Of a stretch of 64,000 nucleotides of DNA, positions 4,412-13,471 are shown in pieces (the stretch's first letter is position 1; each line of letters begins with the position of its first letter). The notes under the pieces were generated by a model. The model had not been told where the DNA came from. It ran no database searches and worked only from the letters and a program-made list of their open reading frames with translations. Position numbers and translations under genes: made by a program. Source of the stretch: Kordia sp. SMS9 (lineage in GTDB: Bacteria; Bacteroidota; Bacteroidia; Flavobacteriales; Flavobacteriaceae); assembly GCF_003352465.1 (NCBI RefSeq), contig NZ_CP031153.1, forward strand, positions 982,465-1,046,464, read 5' to 3'.

Positions 4412-5677
4412 TTACACCAAAAACTGAAATAAATCAGGTTTATCGTTTAGATAATCGCCATAGAAGTTACGCAATTTCATTTTCGTAATTAAGGCATCTA
4501 AATCTTCAGCGTGTTGCAATTGCAAACCTACAACGGCCGCACCATTTTCACGATTGGTCTTTTTGGTGTATTCAAAGTGTGTAATATCGTCAGTTGGACC
4601 TAAAATCTCTACTACAAATTCGCGTAACGCACCTGCACGCTGTGGAAATTTGATAATAAAGTAATGTTTTAAATTAGCATGAAGCAACGCGCGTTCTTTG
4701 ATTTCAGCCGTTCGCGTAATGTCGTTGTTGCTTCCACTCACGACACACACCACATTTTTACCTTTGATTTCATCAGCATATTGCGATAATGCACATATAC
4801 TTAATACTCCAGCAGGTTCTACAACTATTGCTTGCTTATTGTATAAATCTAAAATGGTTTGACACACATAGCCTTCATCAACGGTAACCATTTGGTGTAA
4901 ATTTTCTTTGCAGATCGCAAAATTCAAATCGCCTACACGTTTGACAGCAGCACCGTCCACAAAGTTTTCAATATTCTTCAACCGAGTATTTCGTTGTTTT
5001 TCGATAGAAGTTGACATAGAAGGCGCACCTTTGGGTTCTACACCCATAATTTTCGTTGTAGGAGACAACATTTTGAACACGGAAGATAAGCCTGCAGATA
5101 AGCCGCCGCCGCCAACAGGTACAAATACATAATCAATTGGAGTTTCGAGTTGCTTCAAAATTTCCAATCCGATCGTAGCTTGTCCTTCAATCACTTTTTC
5201 ATCATTAAACGGATGAATAAAGGTTTTGTTGAGTTGCTCTGATTGTTCTCTTGCCGCATGATATGCATCATCAAAAGTATCACCTATTAAAACCACTTCC
5301 ACGTATTCTTCACCAAACATATTGACCTGTTCAATTTTTTGATTTGGTGTTGGCGTTGGCATAAAAATCGTGCCTTTTATCTGCAATAATTTACACGATA
5401 ATGCCACACCTTGCGCATGATTTCCGGCACTTGCACATACAATTTCATTTTCAATCTGAGTGTTTGTCAAAGATGCCATTTTGTTATACGCACCGCGAAT
5501 TTTGTACGAGCGGACTTGTTGTAAATCTTCTCGCTTTAAATAGACATTACAATCGTATTGCTTAGAGTAGTAATCATTATAACTCAAAGGCGTTACCGAA
5601 GCAATGCCTTTGAGTGTTTTCGCAGCGTTTTGAATCGCTGCTAACGTTGGAGCGTATGTTGTAGTGGTTGATTGCAC
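4412..5677 (-). CDS. ilvA: Threonine dehydratase (threonine ammonia-lyase), biosynthetic
   Basis: Converts L-threonine to 2-oxobutanoate, the committed step to isoleucine. The 421-residue protein has the fold-type II PLP core, with Lys59 in VRSYKIRGAYN as the PLP lysine and the phosphate-binding loop VGGGGLSAG near residue 190. A single ACT-like regulatory region covers roughly residues 330-421 (FPQRAGALREFVVEILG), which suggests feedback control by isoleucine. It lies last in the ilv cluster, 347 bases after ilvC, and that gap is filled with dispersed repeats. It is probably read with ilvC, but a separate promoter is possible. Confidence 0.93.
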   Translation of the reverse strand: MQSTTTTYAPTLAAIQNAAKTLKGIASVTPLSYNDYYSKQYDCNVYLKREDLQQVRSYKIRGAYNKMASLTNTQIENEIVCASAGNHAQGVALSCKLLQIKGTIFMPTPTPNQKIEQVNMFGEEYVEVVLIGDTFDDAYHAAREQSEQLNKTFIHPFNDEKVIEGQATIGLEILKQLETPIDYVFVPVGGGGLSAGLSSVFKMLSPTTKIMGVEPKGAPSMSTSIEKQRNTRLKNIENFVDGAAVKRVGDLNFAICKENLHQMVTVDEGYVCQTILDLYNKQAIVVEPAGVLSICALSQYADEIKGKNVVCVVSGSNNDITRTAEIKERALLHANLKHYFIIKFPQRAGALREFVVEILGPTDDITHFEYTKKTNRENGAAVVGLQLQHAEDLDALITKMKLRNFYGDYLNDKPDLFQFLV

Positions 5678-6024: not shown

Positions 6025-7527
6025 CTAAGCCACGACAGCTTTATCTTTCTGAACGGTTGTTTTTATTGTTTTCATGGCTGTCATCGCTGCACGTAAACGC
6101 TTTCCAACCGCTTCAATTGGGTGATTTCTGATGGCATCATTTACAGCGATTAAATCTAAATTATCAACTGAATTTGAGGCTGCAAATGGTTTCCCGATTA
6201 CAGAAGTATTAACTGTTTCCATAAAGGGTTTTAACAAAGGTTTTGCGGCATGATCAAACAAATAACAACCGTATTCTGCCGTATCCGAGATTACTCGGTT
6301 CATTTCAAATAATTTTTTTCTAGCAATGGTATTCGCGATTAATGGCAATTCGTGTAACGATTCGTAATACGCTGAATCTTCTATAATTCCTGCGCTCACC
6401 ATCGTTTCAAATGCCAATTCTACACCTGATTTTACAAAAGCTACCAACAAAGTTCCATGATCAAAGTATTCTTGTTCAGAAATATGATCCGTAGTCAAAG
6501 CTGTTTTTTCAAACGCCGTTTCGCCCGTTGCTTCACGCCATTTTAAAAGGTTTTTATCGTCATTTGCCCAATCTTCCATCATCGTTTCAGAAAAATGTCC
6601 TGAAATAATATCGTCCATGTGTTTTTCAAACAAAGGCTTCAAAATACTTTTGAGTTGTTCTGACAAGCCAAACGCTTTTATTTTTGCAGGATTAGACAAG
6701 CGATCCATCATATTAGTAATTCCGCCATGTTTCAAGGCTTCCGTGATGGTTTCCCAACCTAATTGAATGAGTTTTGCTGCATAATTTGCATCAACACCAT
6801 CTGCGACCATTTTATCAAAAGCCAAAATAGAACCTGTTTGCAATACGCCACACAAAATGGTTTGTTCGCCCATTAAATCGCTTTTTACTTCTGCGATAAA
6901 CGACGATTCCAACACACCAGCTCTGTGTCCGCCCGTCGCCACTGCATACGCTTTTGCTTGATCCCAACCTTTGTTTTCTGGATCGTTTTCTGGATGTACC
7001 GCAATTAACGTCGGAACTCCAAAACCACGTTTGTATTCTTCACGAACTTCCGTTCCTGGACATTTTGGCGCCACCATGATTACGGTGATATCTTCACGAA
7101 CTTTCGTGCCTTCTTCCACAATATTGAAACCATGTGAATAGCTCAACGTCGCTCCTTTTTTCATCAAAGGCATCACAGATTTTACAACGTTTGTATGTTG
7201 TTTGTCTGGCGTCAAATTTAAGACTAAATCTGCCGTTGGAATGAGTTGTTTATAGGTTCCTACTTTGAAACCGTGCGACGTTGCGTTTTGGTATGAATTG
7301 CGTTCTTCATCAATGGCTGCTTGGCGTAATGCATACGAAATATCCAAGCCAGAATCGCGCATATTTAATCCTTGATTTAGTCCTTGAGCGCCGCAACCGA
7401 CGATGACTATTTTTTTGTCTTTGAGTGCTTTCACGCCATCTCCGAATTCGGAAGCATCCATAAATCTACATTTTCCTAATTGTGCTAATTGTGCTCGTAA
7501 TGGTAAGGTGTTAAAGTAATTTGACAT
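6025..7527 (-). CDS. ilvC: Ketol-acid reductoisomerase, class II (long form)
   Basis: Isomerises and reduces acetolactate or acetohydroxybutyrate with NADPH and Mg2+, the second common step to valine and isoleucine. At 500 residues it has the length of class II enzymes such as the E. coli form, which carry a duplicated C-terminal domain. The Rossmann motif [18 protein letters not shown] lies near residues 43-60, and Mg2+-site candidates are in the long helical C-terminal half. It is the fifth gene of the ilv operon. The 127-base gap from ilvN contains a palindromic CTAGAGTCTTGACTCTAG sequence. Confidence 0.95.
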
Positions 7528-7654: not shown

Positions 7655-8185
7655 TTAATGATTAATTGCTTCCAACATTTTCGATATTTTCATTTCTTCT
7701 TTGGAAACCGCAATGCGTCCTGAACGTGTAAATTGCATGATGCCGAACACGCTGAGTTCTCTGTATAAAAGTTCAATTTCTTCTTTGCGACCTGATTTTT
7801 CAATGACAAAGAATTGTTTGTTTACCGTAACAATTCGCGCATTGCTGTCTTTGATGATGTTTTGAATTTGTCGTTCTTCAAACAGCAAGTCCGATTTCAT
7901 TTTGAAAATACACGATTCTTGGTAAATGATTTCATCTTCGGTATGATAATACGCTTTAATGACCTCAACTTGCTTTTCTATTTGCCCGATGATTTTCTTC
8001 ATTTGCACTTCCGTGAGATTTACCACTAAAGTCCATTTTGATACGTTTTCAATTTCAGAAACCGACGAGTTAATGCTTTCAATATTGATATGTCTTCGCT
8101 GAAAGATCGCTGAAATTCTGTTCAACAATCCGATGTTATTTTCCGTGTATACCGAAACCGTAAATTGTTTGCTTTCTTGTTCCAT
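7655..8185 (-). CDS. ilvN: Acetolactate synthase small (regulatory) subunit
   Basis: A 176-residue ACT-domain protein. The N-terminal ACT domain begins with FTVSVYTENNIGLLNRIS, and the GLLNRIS loop is the usual valine-binding segment. The C-terminal half is the second, catalytic-subunit-activating domain. It stimulates IlvB and makes it sensitive to valine. It starts one base after the ilvB stop, so the subunits are almost certainly co-translated. The symbol could equally be ilvH; there is only one copy here. Confidence 0.93.
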   Translation of the reverse strand: MEQESKQFTVSVYTENNIGLLNRISAIFQRRHINIESINSSVSEIENVSKWTLVVNLTEVQMKKIIGQIEKQVEVIKAYYHTEDEIIYQESCIFKMKSDLLFEERQIQNIIKDSNARIVTVNKQFFVIEKSGRKEEIELLYRELSVFGIMQFTRSGRIAVSKEEMKISKMLEAINH

Positions 8186-8186
8186 A

Positions 8187-9920
8187 TTAACTCAATCTTA
8201 TGTCTGAAACCGATGCTCCTGTTGGGATCATTGGAAAAACGTTGTCTTCTTTTTCTACACATACTTCTAAAAAGTACGCTTCTTTACTTTCCATCATTTC
8301 TTGTACCGCTTCCGCTAATTCGTCTCGCTTCGTAACACGTCGAGCGTTTAAATAATACCCTTTCGCGATCGCTACAAAATCTGGATTTGTCATTTCGGTA
8401 GACGCATAGCGTTTGTCAAAAAACAATTGTTGCCATTGACGCACCATTCCCAAGAAATCATTATTTAACACCACAATTTTCACGGCGGCTTTTTGCTGAA
8501 AGATGGTTCCTAATTCTTGAATGGTCATTTGGTAACCGCCATCGCCACATACACAAACAACTTCACGTTCGGGTGCTGCCATTTTTGCGCCAATTGCTGC
8601 TGGCAAGCCAAATCCCATCGTTCCCAATCCGCCAGAAGTAATGTTACTTTTTGTCTGAGTAAAGTTTGCATAACGACAGGCAATCATTTGATGCTGACCA
8701 ACGTCTGAAACAATCGCAGCTTCCCCTTTACTTTGTATATTAATTTCTTTCATCACTTCGCCCATGGTCAATCCTTCTTTTGTAGGGTGCAAGTCGTTTT
8801 TGATGACTTTTTCATATTCAATCGCATACAAATCGTCAAAAGCACGTCTCCAAATATCATGTGATTTCTCTTGGATGAAAGGTAAAACCGCAGCCAAACT
8901 CGCTTTTGCATCACCCAAAACGGCAACATCAGTTTTTACATTTTTATCTACTTCCGCAGGATCAATTTCGAAGTGAATTACTTTTGCTTGTTTTGCATAC
9001 GTGGCTAAGTTTCCTGTAACACGATCATCGAAACGCATTCCGATGGCAATCAACACATCACATTCATTCGTTAATACATTTGGCGCATAATTTCCGTGCA
9101 TTCCTACCATTCCGACATTTAGCGGATGTTCGGTTGGAATCGCTGAAACACCTAAGATTGTCCATGCAGCAGGAATTCCTGCTTTTTCAATAAACGCTTT
9201 AAATTCTTGTTCTGCTTTGCCTAAAATCACACCTTGTCCCCAAACTACCATTGGTTTTTTTGCTTTGTTGATCAAATCTGCAGCAGCTTTTAAAGAATTC
9301 TCGTCTGTTTCAGGCACAGCTTTGTAACTTCGGATTCCTGTGCATTTTTCATACGCAAAGTCAAATTCTTCAAATTGTGCATCTTTGGTAATATCGATCA
9401 ATACTGGTCCTGGACGACCGCTTTTGGCAATGTAAAAGGCTTTTGCCATTACTTCTGGAATTTCAGAAGCTTTCGTAATTTGATGATTCCATTTGGTTAC
9501 TGGCGTAGAAATTCCGACAATATCCGTTTCTTGAAACGCATCACTTCCCAACAAATGTGAACCCACTTGTCCTGTGATGCACACCATCGGCGTGGAATCA
9601 ATTTGTGCATCAGCAATTCCTGTGATTAAGTTGGTGGCACCTGGACCTGAGGTCGCAATTGCCACACCTACTTTTCCAGAGATTCGTGCATAACCTTGCG
9701 CAGCATGTGTTGCTCCTTGCTCATGACGTGTTAATACATGATGAATTTGATCTTGGTACTTATACAATTCGTCATACACAGGCATAATGGCACCGCCAGG
9801 ATACCCGTATAGCGTTTTTACACCTTCTGCCAACAGGCATTTTATGATCGCTTCGCTTCCTGAGAGACGTTCTGTTTGTTGTGGTGTTTCTTGTGTTGTT
9901 TGTATGGCTTTTGTTTCCAT
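8187..9920 (-). CDS. ilvB: Acetolactate synthase large (catalytic) subunit
   Basis: A 577-residue thiamine diphosphate enzyme that condenses pyruvate with pyruvate or 2-oxobutanoate. Glu67 in RHEQGATHAAQGYAR is the cofactor-activating glutamate. The ThDP/Mg2+ motif starts with CGDGGYQMTIQEL and ends with LNNDFLGMV. Three domains are present in the normal order: PYR, central, PP. It is the third gene of the operon. The 76-base gap to ilvD holds a repeat-like hairpin (ATTCCTGC and GCAGGAAT arms, about 9937-9980). Confidence 0.95.
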   Translation of the reverse strand: METKAIQTTQETPQQTERLSGSEAIIKCLLAEGVKTLYGYPGGAIMPVYDELYKYQDQIHHVLTRHEQGATHAAQGYARISGKVGVAIATSGPGATNLITGIADAQIDSTPMVCITGQVGSHLLGSDAFQETDIVGISTPVTKWNHQITKASEIPEVMAKAFYIAKSGRPGPVLIDITKDAQFEEFDFAYEKCTGIRSYKAVPETDENSLKAAADLINKAKKPMVVWGQGVILGKAEQEFKAFIEKAGIPAAWTILGVSAIPTEHPLNVGMVGMHGNYAPNVLTNECDVLIAIGMRFDDRVTGNLATYAKQAKVIHFEIDPAEVDKNVKTDVAVLGDAKASLAAVLPFIQEKSHDIWRRAFDDLYAIEYEKVIKNDLHPTKEGLTMGEVMKEINIQSKGEAAIVSDVGQHQMIACRYANFTQTKSNITSGGLGTMGFGLPAAIGAKMAAPEREVVCVCGDGGYQMTIQELGTIFQQKAAVKIVVLNNDFLGMVRQWQQLFFDKRYASTEMTNPDFVAIAKGYYLNARRVTKRDELAEAVQEMMESKEAYFLEVCVEKEDNVFPMIPTGASVSDIRLS

Positions 9921-9996: not shown

Positions 9997-11676
9997 TTAG
10001 AATTCATCAGTAACACAACCTTTGGAAGCTGATGAAACTGTTTTTGCATATTTGTATAATACACCGCGTTCAAATTTGAGTGCTGGTGCTTTCCATTGTT
10101 TTCTACGTTCTTGAAGTTCTGTTTCATAGACTTCCAATCGTATGGTGTTCGTTTCTGCATCAATTGTGATGATATCGCCATCTTTTACCAATGCTAGTGT
10201 TCCGCCTTCTTGTGCTTCTGGTGTGATGTGTCCGACGACAAAACCATGTGTTCCTCCAGAAAAGCGTCCATCCGTAATGAGTGCGACATCTTTTCCTAAA
10301 CCTGCGCCCATGATTGCGGCAGTTGGTTTTAGCATTTCTGGCATCCCTGGTCCGCCTTTTGGTCCTTCATACCGAATGACGACCACATCGCCTTTTTCTA
10401 CTTTTCCGTCTCGGATTCCGTCATTGGCTTCGTATTCGCCTTCAAATACTTTGGCTTTTCCTATGAATTTTAACCCTTCTTTTCCTGTGATTTTTGCGAC
10501 ACTTCCTTCGCTTGCCAAGTTTCCATAGAGCATGCGTAAGTGTCCTGAGATTTTGATTGGGTTTTCCACAGGTTTGATTACATCTTGCCCTTCTGCTAAA
10601 TCCTCTACATCTAGTAAGTTTTCTGCGATGGTTTTTCCAGTTACGGTCATACAATCGCCGTGTAATAATCCTTTTTTGAGAAGATATTTTAATACTGCTG
10701 GAATTCCGCCAACGGCATGCACATCTTCCATTAAGTATTTTCCGCTAGGTTTTAAGTCTGCTAGAAATGGCGTAGTGTCACTTATTTTTTGAAAGTCTGC
10801 TAGTGTAAAGTCTATTTGTGCAGCTCTCGCTATGGCGAGAAAGTGTAATACTGCGTTTGTAGATCCGCCGAGAATCGTTACCAATCGCACTGCATTTTCT
10901 AGTGATTTTCTTGTAATGATATCGGACGGTTTGATGTCTTTTTCTAGTAAAACGCGCATGGCTTCACCAGCTGCAACCGATTCTTCTTTTTTTGCATCAC
11001 TCAACGCAGGATTTGACGAATTGAACGGCAAGGTCATTCCTAATGCTTCTATGGCAGAAGCCATCGTATTTGCCGTGTACATTCCGCCACAAGCGCCAGC
11101 ACCTGGACATGCTTTTTCAACAATGTTTTGGTATTCTGTTTCGTCCATCGTGCCAGCTACTTTACTTCCCCACGCTTCAAAAGCTGAAACGACATCAAGT
11201 TTTTTTCCATTGTGACAACCTGAATCAATGGTTCCGCCATAGACCAAAATACTTGGGCGATTTAAGCGAATCATTGCCATGAGTGCACCAGGCATATTTT
11301 TATCACAACCAACAACCGTAATTAATCCGTCATAGCTCATGGCTTGCACCACCGTTTCCATAGAATCGGCAATGATGTCACGTGACGGCAATGAGTAACG
11401 CATTCCAGGTGTTCCCATCGAAATACCATCACTCACACCAATTGTGTTAAATATGAGACCGACAATGTCTTCATTTTTGGTTCCTTCTTTTGCCAGTTTT
11501 GCCAAATCGTTCAAATGCATGTTGCACGGATTTCCTTCGTATCCTGTACTGGCAATTCCGATGATGGGTTTAAAAAAGTCTTCTTTTGTTAATCCGATCG
11601 CGTGTAGCATCGCTTGTGCCGCAGGTTGCGTAGGATCTTGCGTGACTGTTTTGCTATATTTATTTAGGTTGTTCAT
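9997..11676 (-). CDS. ilvD: Dihydroxy-acid dehydratase
   Basis: Dehydrates dihydroxy-isovalerate and -methylvalerate to the 2-oxo acids. The 559-residue protein has the three cysteines expected to hold the Fe-S cluster: Cys51 (NPCNMH), Cys124 (VGCDKNMPG) and Cys196 ([14 protein letters not shown]). The C-terminal region carries the conserved [18 protein letters not shown] stretch. It follows ilvE with a two-base gap. Confidence 0.95.
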
Positions 11677-11678
11677 AG

Positions 11679-12572
11679 TTATATCGCTTCTGATAGTTTT
11701 TGAGAGCGTTCACAAAGTACTTCTTGTTTGTAGAGTTGCATCAACTTGTAACCGAGAGACGCTTCCCACGAAAGTGGAAATGTATAATCATCTAACGACG
11801 CTAATCCGACAACTTCTGCTGCCGTTCCTGTAAAGAAAGCGCTGTCTGCTTGTTTGAGTTCCTCTAATGTAAAGTGTGTTTCTGCTACCGGAATTCCTTC
11901 TTCTTTACAGATTTCGATAATCGTAGAACGTGTAATTCCTGCCATGATGTGTCCGCGTTTTGGCGTATAGAGTTTGCCCTCTTTTTCCATGAATACGTTG
12001 GCGCCAGAGCATTCTGCTACATTTCCGTTCATGTCTAACAATAATGCTTCGTCATAGCCTGCTTTTTTAGCTTCATTTGTGGATAGAATGGAGTTTGTAT
12101 AATGTCCTGTAATTTTTGCTTCTACAAAGCACGATTTTGGGTTTGGTCGTTGAAAACGAGATGTTTTTACTTTTAGAAGTTTGTCGCCCATGTATTTTCC
12201 CCATTCCCAACATTGAATCGTTAAAAACGATTCTTCAGCAGTTAGCAAGCTCATGTTGGCTCCTGTTACCAATATTGGACGAATGTAGGCGTCTTGCAGG
12301 TTGTTTTTTTCTAGTAAATTGTAGGTGATGTCTACTAATTCATCTACCGTGTAATCGCATGGAATTCCCATGACTTGGGCGCCATATTTTAAACGTTCGT
12401 AATGTTCGGCAGCTTTGAAGACTTTTGCGCCAAATTTTGTTTTGTAGGAGCGGATGCCTTCAAATACACCGTTTCCGTAGTGTAATGCTTGACTGTACAG
12501 GTTTCCTGAAGCCTTTTCAGGATGCATATATGCGCCGTTGTGGTAAATGATGCTGTCTTTTGTATAATACAT
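11679..12572 (-). CDS. ilvE: Branched-chain amino acid aminotransferase
   Basis: Last step of isoleucine, valine and leucine synthesis: transfer of an amino group from glutamate. From the start [13 protein letters not shown] it has 297 residues, typical for fold-type IV aminotransferases. Lys153 in [11 protein letters not shown] is the likely PLP lysine, and the C-terminal [14 protein letters not shown] stretch binds phosphate. The frame is open to 12650, but the extra 26 residues are rich in Asn and Lys and unlike the family, so 12572 is chosen. It is the first structural gene of the ilv operon, behind a leader with two attenuators. Confidence 0.94.
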
Positions 12573-12779
12573 GTTAGTGTGATTATGATTCGAATTTAAT
12601 TTATTGTGATTCTTTTGTGAATTCGGTTTTAGAATTTCGCCTAAAACCAATTGTTATTTTTTTGATTTAATTTACTGATTTTCAGTATTTTATTTGTTGC
12701 TAAATACAATGCTCAACGTTTGATATTTTATTGTTTATGAAAGCTGAATATTGATTTCGCCTTTTAATATTCTTATTAT

Positions 12780-13087
12780 GAGATCCCGCTCTACAGCGGG
12801 ATTTGTTCAACTTGCAGTTTTAAGTGCATCCTTCGGATTTCTTAAAAACATTATCAATTTATATTCCTGCTTCTTGTTCAAACCCTCAGAATGTTTCATG
12901 AGATCCCGCTCTGCAGCGGGATTTGTTCAACTTACAGTTTTAAGTGCATCCTTCGGATTTCTTAAAAACATTATCAATTTATATTCCTGCTTCTTGTTCA
13001 AACCCTCAGAATGTTTCATGAGATCCCGCTCTGCAGCGGGATTTGTTCAACTTACAGTTTTAAGTGCATCCTTCGGATTTCTTAAAA
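12780..13087 (-). repeat. 120-bp tandem repeat, 2.6 copies
   Basis: Period is exactly 120 bases: 12781-12900, 12901-13020 and a partial 13021-13087. Copies 2 and 3 are identical over their shared length; copy 1 differs at two positions near its start (CTACAGCGGG for CTGCAGCGGG, and CTTGCAG for CTTACAG). Each unit contains a CCCGCTCTGCAGCGGGA hairpin and a second hairpin around ATCCTTCGGAT. A related single unit lies at 30996-31076. The plus-strand frame through it is open because 120 is divisible by three; it is not taken as a gene. Confidence 0.85.
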
Positions 13088-13099
13088 CTGAGTTTCACT

Positions 13100-13129
13100 A
13101 AAAAAGCCTGTATCGCAATTGATACAGGC
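13100..13129 (-). terminator. Attenuator terminator 2 of the ilv leader
   Basis: Transcribed leftward: GCCTGTATC, loop AATTGC, GATACAGGC, then six T. The perfect nine-base-pair stem with its U-run is a strong intrinsic terminator. Its 5' arm can instead pair with 13151-13159 (AGTTGATAC on the minus strand against GTATCAATT), which would be the antiterminator. It sits 30 bases after the stop codon of the second leader peptide. Confidence 0.88.
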
Positions 13130-13158
13130 TTTTGTTTTATACAGCACATCGTATCAAC

Positions 13159-13221
13159 TCAAGTGGAGTTCATAATTATAATGACGATGACGATGATGCT
13201 GATGCTGATTATTTTGTTCAT
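13159..13221 (-). CDS. ilv leader peptide 2 (Ile/Val-rich attenuator peptide)
   Basis: A 20-codon reading frame, MNKIISISIIVIVIIIMNST, with nine isoleucines and two valines. Its stop codon lies at the edge of the antiterminator arm (13151-13159). The AACTC and GAGTT segments at 13156-13170 can form the competing 1:2 hairpin, so the layout is that of a classic transcription attenuator: stalling at Ile/Val codons frees region 2 to pair with region 3, and fast translation covers region 2 and lets the terminator form. It was found by eye; the frame is far too short for ordinary gene callers. Confidence 0.85.
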   Translation of the reverse strand: MNKIISISIIVIVIIIMNST

Positions 13222-13259
13222 TTGTTTATAGTGTTTTGTTTTCGTTTTTTGAAAGACTA

Positions 13260-13323
13260 TTCTCGATAGATTTTTTGTTTATTTCGACTGCGCTCAATAT
13301 GACAAAAAACACTCGAATTGACG
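13260..13323 (+). repeat. Dispersed intergenic repeat, family A, copy 4
   Basis: The ends are TTCTCGATAGATTTTTTG and CACTCGAATTGACG, with core TTTCGACTGCGCTCAATATG. It is inserted between the first attenuator terminator and the second leader peptide. Confidence 0.75.
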
Positions 13324-13340
13324 TCTTTCAAAAGTTTCAC

Positions 13341-13375
13341 TAATAAATAAAGCCTTCCCGATTGAGGAAGGCTTT
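13341..13375 (-). terminator. Attenuator terminator 1 of the ilv leader
   Basis: Transcribed leftward: AAAGCCTTCC, loop TCAATCG, GGAAGGCTTT, followed by ATTTATTA. The ten-base-pair stem is strong, but the T-run is interrupted. Its 5' arm TTCCTCA can pair with TGAGGAA at 13405-13411, which overlaps the stop codon of leader peptide 1, giving a competing antiterminator. Confidence 0.8.
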
Positions 13376-13408
13376 GTAAATTTTATAGTTAAAATAGCAT
13401 CGCGTTCC

Positions 13409-13471
13409 TCATCGTAGTGATTGAATCACAATAATGTTGTTGACAATGATATTTTGTATTTGTTTGTTCAT
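13409..13471 (-). CDS. ilv leader peptide 1 (Ile/Val-rich attenuator peptide)
   Basis: A 20-codon frame, MNKQIQNIIVNNIIVIQSLR, with six isoleucines, two valines and one leucine. It has exactly the same length (63 bases with stop) and the same MNK start as leader peptide 2. The stop codon lies inside the antiterminator arm 13405-13411. The two leaders look like a duplicated attenuator module that has since diverged. Confidence 0.78.
   Translation of the reverse strand: MNKQIQNIIVNNIIVIQSLR

Follow-up and report, generated by a model that had tools for sequence, protein, structure and literature searches.

Two leader-peptide attenuators predicted in series upstream of the ilv operon of Kordia sp. 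SMS9 and its relatives

Ribosome-mediated leader-peptide attenuation controls the ilvGMEDA, trp and his operons of enteric bacteria, and has been studied mostly as single modules in Proteobacteria. In the stretch of Kordia sp. SMS9 DNA analysed here (64,000 nucleotides; hereafter the window), two short frames rich in isoleucine and valine codons, each followed by a hairpin, precede the ilv operon. This arrangement raises two questions. First, are these two complete attenuators that act on one transcript? Second, what would a second stage that reads the same amino acids add to the first? We consider it very probable that two complete ribosome-mediated (trp/ilv-type) transcription attenuators, in series and for the same amino acids, control the operon.

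On the minus strand, leader 1, terminator 1 (T1), leader 2 and terminator 2 (T2) are followed by ilvE (branched-chain aminotransferase, 11679..12572, TIGR01122), the first gene of the controlled operon, and then by ilvD (dihydroxy-acid dehydratase, 9997..11676, TIGR00110), ilvB (acetolactate synthase large subunit, 8187..9920, TIGR00118), ilvN (acetolactate synthase small subunit, 7655..8185, TIGR00119), ilvC (ketol-acid reductoisomerase, 6025..7527, TIGR00465) and ilvA (threonine ammonia-lyase, 4412..5677, TIGR02079), all six scoring above the cut-off of the NCBIfam model given. The gltBD genes lie upstream of the control region, and the stretch is AT-rich. The minus strand was inspected base by base from 13513 to 12572. 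The control region extends beyond the limits of the original prediction, with a predicted promoter at about 13513-13481 added upstream of leader 1, and the interval between T2 and ilvE holds a 120-bp tandem repeat (2.6 copies) and a conserved promoter-like element.

Leader peptides, terminators and alternative pairings

Leader peptide 1 (MNKQIQNIIVNNIIVIQSLR, 13409..13471, minus strand) and leader peptide 2 (MNKIISISIIVIVIIIMNST, 13159..13221, minus strand) both end in TGA, and their homologues in related genomes are termed here type 1 and type 2. As originally described, each frame has 20 codons and 63 bases including the stop, with 8 and 11 isoleucine or valine codons, respectively. Elsewhere in the 64-kb window, 393 frames of 15-25 codons begin with ATG, and just 2 of them reach a combined content of these two residues of at least 40%. 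The two leader types with their homologues contain about 31% Ile and 13-15% Val, compared with 7.3% and 6.7% in the genes of the window; they are thus short frames rich in codons for the product amino acids. The idea that the pair gives a multi-amino-acid response is weak, since both types share one and the same mix of Ile over Val. A point against the attenuator reading is that, among the substitutions between leaders within the genus, the third-position excess is only modest (45% of changes).

A generic caller was also used, which asks for a short frame with at least 5 Ile/Val codons in its last 16 and a terminator 8-75 nt past the stop. On the minus strand of the whole window, only leaders 1 and 2 reach at least 8 Ile/Val codons in the last 16. 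Applied to 105 ilvD upstream regions of Flavobacteriaceae, it found leaders in 57 (11 pairs and 46 singles); the opposite strand of the same regions gave no pair and 8 singles, and shuffled sequence gave nothing. The pair of Ile/Val-rich leaders is beyond chance. No Shine-Dalgarno sequence was seen at the ilv leaders; flavobacteria belong to a group without the usual Shine-Dalgarno initiation. Other amino-acid operons of the same genome were sampled as well: a His-rich leader (MPYTQLHHHHFHTCPQASC, with LHHHHFH) followed by a terminator precedes hisG (L224, G000:C1, upstream of 3983204) and has a possible antiterminator pairing, TTGATGTA/TACATCAA, and no leader was found at leuA.

Each leader is followed by a terminator hairpin at the place first assigned to it. 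T1 (AAAGCCTTCCT-CAATC-GGGAAGGCTTT) spans 13349..13375 with a dG of -15.3, and T2 (AAAAGCCTGTATC-AATTGC-GATACAGGCTTTT) spans 13102..13133 with a dG of -16.5 for its inner stem, both on the minus strand. U-rich tails come after both hairpins, so that an intrinsic terminator lies between each leader and the structural genes.

Each module has, at the stop codon of its leader, a segment that can base-pair with the 5′ arm of the terminator that follows. The putative antiterminator segment 1 (TGAGGAAC, 13404..13411, minus strand) lies over the leader-1 stop codon, and TGAGGAA, read from 13411, can pair with TTCCTCA at 13369-13363. The corresponding segment 2 (GAGTTGATAC, 13151..13160, minus strand) lies past the control codons of leader 2, and the pairing proposed for it, AGTTGATAC with GTATCAATT at 13125-13117, is likewise found. 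Segment 2 has an alternative partner in leader 2 itself, within a 1:2 (protector) hairpin predicted at 13142..13201 (minus strand) when the naked transcript with its untranslated leader is folded; the 1:2 pairing named before, AACTC (13170-13166) with GAGTT (13160-13156), is part of it.

An Rfam search of the region returned no family at threshold. The best sub-threshold matches are to other amino-acid leaders, namely Thr_leader (RF00506, 28.9 bits) and Phe_leader (RF01859, 24.8 bits), against a gathering threshold of 55. A T-box riboswitch was considered and rejected, since no Rfam T-box model matched, either at threshold or at E<=1.

Co-variation and predicted ribosome-dependent folds

The energy of the best duplex that the stop-codon segment can form with the 5′ arm of the terminator was calculated for 111 attenuators, with arms dealt at random as the control; co-variation was assessed on about one locus per genus (88 attenuators) with 3000 permutations. 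The mean energy of the own duplex is -12.2 kcal/mol, compared with -8.6 (sd 0.30) for permuted arms, which gives z = -11.8, with z = -8.1 within type 1 and -3.7 within type 2; as relatedness remains under permutation, these z values are descriptive only. None of the 3000 permutations reached as low an energy as the own pairs, either over the whole set or within each type. Reversing the segment, as a control for composition, gave z values of -4.2 (whole set), -1.3 (type 1) and -1.5 (type 2), and a segment upstream of the stop gave -0.7 over the whole set and up to -2.9 within type 2.

Compensating changes can be read at single loci. At L047 the arm AAACCATCC goes with the stop segment GAGGATGGTTT, at L046 the arm CCTTTC goes with GAAAGG, and at L038 the pair is AGCCTTTCTC/GAGTCAGGCT. 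Such individual paired changes are the plain evidence for co-variation. The segment follows the last Ile/Val codon at a median distance of 13 nt (interquartile range 10.5-14), and this distance is still 13-14 nt at two attenuators in which the stop codon has moved (L036_1 and L034_2). A constant spacing of about 13 nt would be expected if a ribosome held on these codons has to leave the segment just uncovered.

Folds were predicted for different ribosome positions by masking the covered nucleotides in a transcript that ends at the terminator loop and folding the rest; these folds are thermodynamic and take no account of transcription speed. With the ribosome on a late Ile/Val codon, the antiterminator has 9.5 pairs in type 1 and 12.2 in type 2, and with the ribosome at the stop codon it has 1.0 and 1.8. 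In 100 of 103 attenuators, the margin of the stalled state over the stop-codon state is above 3 pairs, and attenuators 1 and 2 of the window were also folded individually under the ribosome masks. Thus co-variation and predicted folds both point to an antiterminator that competes with the terminator under control of ribosome position. According to this model, the antiterminator would form when a ribosome is held on the Ile/Val codons some 13 nt upstream, and would be blocked by a ribosome on the stop codon. When charged tRNA-Ile and tRNA-Val are plentiful, ribosomes would reach the stop codon and cover the segment, and both terminators would form; when either amino acid is short, ribosomes would stall, the antiterminators would form and polymerase would pass. 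With leaders, control codons and pairings conserved and co-varying, the comparison with the attenuation logic of enteric ilvGMEDA, as first drawn, is supported.

A further point concerns the state of a leader that carries no ribosome. In window attenuator 1, which lacks a protector hairpin, the antiterminator is predicted to form. In window attenuator 2, the predicted fold brings the leader into pairing with the segment, the 1:2 pairing included, and so blocks the antiterminator. Relatives are mixed with regard to the protector hairpin. Among the tandem loci, the ratio of antiterminator pairs in the naked state to those in the stalled state has a median of 0.84 for module 1 versus 0.18 for module 2; the difference has p = 0.003 over 30 loci and p = 0.066 over 19 genera, and is significant only without correction for relatedness. 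This suggests, and does not establish, that the two modules differ in their predicted default state: an untranslated leader 1 would give read-through and an untranslated leader 2 termination, so that the pair would pass polymerase only if leader 2 is both translated and stalled.

The opposite defaults in the window and the like trend among the pairs could be taken to mean that the modules sense different things, with leader 1 reading Ile/Val charging and leader 2 reading charging together with general translation initiation, in the manner of the two-signal mgtCBR leader. However, leader types 1 and 2 are nearly equal in amino-acid content, the trend in default state loses its significance once each genus is represented by one locus, and thermodynamic folds are blind to transcription speed. 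We regard such a division of labour as unlikely, if worth keeping in mind, and prefer two modules with the same signal.

Distribution, serial arrangement and the element downstream of T2

Every one of the 11 species sampled from the genus has the pair. Ten of these were found via ilvE (the window's own species and nine others); the eleventh genome (G003) has no ilvE at this site and still carries both modules before ilvD. In a family panel with one species for each of 106 Flavobacteriaceae genera, 14 have the tandem arrangement, 37 type 1 only, 14 type 2 only and 41 neither; tandem loci included, type 1 leaders occur in 51 and type 2 leaders in 28 of the 106 genera. The same pair occurs at Tenacibaculum loci and in several further genera, and also in one Flavobacteriales bin outside the family (L047). 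The terminators of type 1 are CCTTCC-like and those of type 2 CCTGTATC-like, and wherever both types are recognisable in a pair the order is always 1 then 2. Two Winogradskyella ilv loci (L039 and L042) have no leaders, and the sampled ilvD upstream regions outside the family (order and class) are mostly empty, with one module at most. Three loci from Bacteroidota outside Flavobacteriaceae (L045, L046 and L050) carry a single Ile-rich leader with a terminator 28-39 nt from the ilvE start codon, which suggests, from these sequences, that single-module attenuation may be wider in the phylum.

Leader frames, control codons and alternative pairings are kept, and co-vary, across genera, so that the original prediction came through the comparison with relatives, which would have refuted it had frames and pairings not been conserved. 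Since many related genera share the double arrangement, it is, on this comparative evidence, an evolutionarily kept circuit and not a chance pattern. The view that a tandem pair is unusual stands for the literature and falls for this group, in which the pair is common. The gene upstream of the leaders varies between genera; since the neighbours vary and G003 keeps both modules before ilvD, the leaders belong to ilv and not to the upstream gene. In a region that is AT-rich and follows gltBD, one might still take the hairpins for plain terminators of those glt genes and the frames for chance runs of AT-rich codons. This reading is contradicted by the varying upstream gene, by the rarity of frames so rich in Ile and Val (2 of 393) and by the co-varying pairings, and we give it almost no credence.

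In a quick ilvD tree with many weak forks, genera with the pair lie on many separate branches, interspersed with relatives that carry one module. Since the homologous modules keep a fixed order, the pair is more likely to have arisen once, long ago, and to have lost one or both modules again and again than to have been assembled repeatedly. L038 (G103) has three attenuators in series, at about -429 to -38 relative to ilvE, and its modules 2 and 3 are a recent copy of the whole module, differing from start codon to terminator stem by three substitutions and one single-base indel; its terminators have drifted, and it was scored as tandem by position. At L198 (G144), about -260 relative to ilvD, a type-1 terminator is retained with a leader frame that is no longer Ile/Val-rich, as in a decaying module.

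Many genera lack one or the other module, which counts against the necessity of the pair; it is not essential. Does only one module matter, the other being a redundant relic of duplication or a module in decay? The many genera with type 1 alone or type 2 alone, the lost Ile/Val frame at L198 and the fresh duplication at L038 would fit. Against this, the control codons, segment and terminator of both modules are kept in 11 of 11 species of the genus despite insertions between them, and we therefore hold it improbable that only one of the two is in use.

For the pair to work in series, both modules must lie on one transcript. The distance from the end of T1 to the start of leader 2 is 9-35 nt in 17 of 30 pairs, and therefore those modules must work in series on one transcript; a separate promoter for leader 2 can be rejected in these compact pairs, since the gap is too short and the promoter would sit inside T1. 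The window itself has a wider gap of 127 nt, and a single transcript is assigned there by homology. The gap includes a REP-like dispersed repeat, TTCGAGTG...TTGAGCGCAGTCGAA (13283..13317, minus strand), an insertion that the compact pairs of other genera lack. Insertions of varied length separate the modules throughout the genus (37-318 nt in ten species), and L003 has a similar REP-like copy between its modules and another fragment upstream of leader 1.

Upstream of leader 1, the predicted promoter P1 (13481..13513, minus strand) consists of ATTAGGA (13513-13507) and a -7-like box, AATATTTG (13488-13481), and is conserved across the genus and in several other genera. The flavobacterial -7 box, TAnnTTTG, lies at -12 to -5 (PMC9723704). 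Judged from the position of the box, transcription would begin around 13476, leaving some 5 nt ahead of the ATG of leader 1 and hence a near-leaderless transcript. A polymerase starting upstream of leader 1 would then meet leader 1, T1, leader 2 and T2 before ilvE. The 'AND gate' of the original prediction is thus borne out as wiring. Because both terminators must be passed, the probabilities of read-through would multiply, and the operon would be more tightly repressed and respond more steeply than with a single module.

Between T2 and ilvE lies a further conserved element, P2 (TTGAGCATTGTA...CTGAAAATCAG...TTGGTTTTA...TTAAATTCGAA, 12589..12716, minus strand), a candidate regulated promoter. 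Of 129 upstream regions, 77 carry its 130-bp consensus, TTGAACATCATA - TAA - TGATAATCAG - TTTAA - TGAATTTA - TAATTTCGA, without a gap, and control regions 650 nt further upstream gave 1 match. Independent pattern matching places the blocks TTGARCAT and AATTTCGA 119-120 bp apart in nearly all regions that have both. P2 lies anywhere from 24 to 170 nt from the start codon, and genera without an attenuator also carry it, so it is anchored to its promoter-like box (TAnnTTTG-like, with no clear -33 box) and not to the gene or the leaders. Elsewhere in the genus, a search found P2 essentially at the ilv site only, and in its own genome the element is all but unique. An RNA structure was rejected, because RNAalifold gave no structure on either strand and the spacing is exact without conservation between the blocks; exact spacing of this kind points to a function at the DNA level, and P2 is presumably a regulated promoter. 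The 120-bp tandem repeat (12778..13087, 98% matches) lies between T2 and P2, outside the conserved machinery. It contains a GC-rich inverted repeat, ATCCCGCT..AGCGGGAT, and is an inserted, dispersed element, since G003 (L228) has a related unit in the interval from T1 to leader 2.

If P2 is active, ilv mRNA could skip both attenuators. The operon might then be driven mainly from P2, with the leaders acting on a secondary upstream transcript only and the attenuators of minor weight. Such a role would agree with the gap-free conservation, the constant spacing, the box and the presence of P2 in genera without attenuators. But the P2 start site, at about 12586, is only predicted, a clear -33 box is absent, and co-varying pairings would hardly be kept if the attenuators had no effect; we think it rather unlikely that the attenuators are minor. 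Taking the serial attenuators, their predicted default states and P2 together, a conserved two-stage gate can be drawn up, in which both stages read the same amino acids, stage 1 passes polymerase unless its leader is translated to the stop, stage 2 blocks unless its leader is translated and stalled, and P2 provides a separately regulated floor. We offer this gate tentatively, as a speculation that is a good deal less likely to be right than wrong.

Relation to known systems and meaning of the pair

The ilv modules resemble enteric ilvGMEDA, trp and his in having a leader rich in the product amino acid, a segment at the stop codon that would choose between antiterminator and terminator, and an intrinsic terminator before the structural genes. 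They differ in that two modules stand in series, Leu codons are few, no Shine-Dalgarno sequence is seen and no Rfam family matches at threshold. A leader attenuator also precedes ilvBNC in Corynebacterium, which belongs to another phylum, and the abstracts of the reports mention no tandem arrangement (PMC10272879, PMC11857589). In the Salmonella mgtCBR leader, two short ORFs each have their own attenuator; the signals are ATP and proline, the two act additively and the hairpins are unlike intrinsic terminators, and the authors termed these tandem attenuators a singular example (PMC3641672). In contrast, both ilv modules appear to sense Ile/Val, via intrinsic terminators. A closer parallel in logic is provided by tandem T-box riboswitches of ilv, trp and thrS genes in Bacillota, where two or three complete sensors of the same signal stand in series and a digital, pseudo-cooperative response is predicted (PMC12452182); T-boxes bind uncharged tRNA directly, whereas the sensor of the ilv pair would be the translating ribosome.

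Nearer to the present lineage, leader-peptide candidates upstream of amino-acid operons have been proposed in Flavobacterium psychrophilum (PMC9723704), and a trp-named RNA motif, the Bacteroid-trp motif, is known in Bacteroidetes (PMC2864571); the main-text passages on both describe no tandem ilv arrangement. In the open-licence literature, no earlier report was found of one signal being read by two leader-peptide attenuators in series. The mechanism is therefore known and leader attenuation was already suspected in flavobacteria; what appears to be new is the tandem arrangement and the lineage.

The natural pairs, singles and one triple across the family make the effect of a second stage for the same signal testable, in terms of steepness, leak and the response to failure of translation. 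It can likewise be tested whether near-leaderless leader peptides couple tightly enough to the polymerase. The motif set is recognisable and can serve for annotating amino-acid operons in Bacteroidota. If the gate with two different defaults is true, the operon would open only for a cell that is short of isoleucine or valine and still able to translate.
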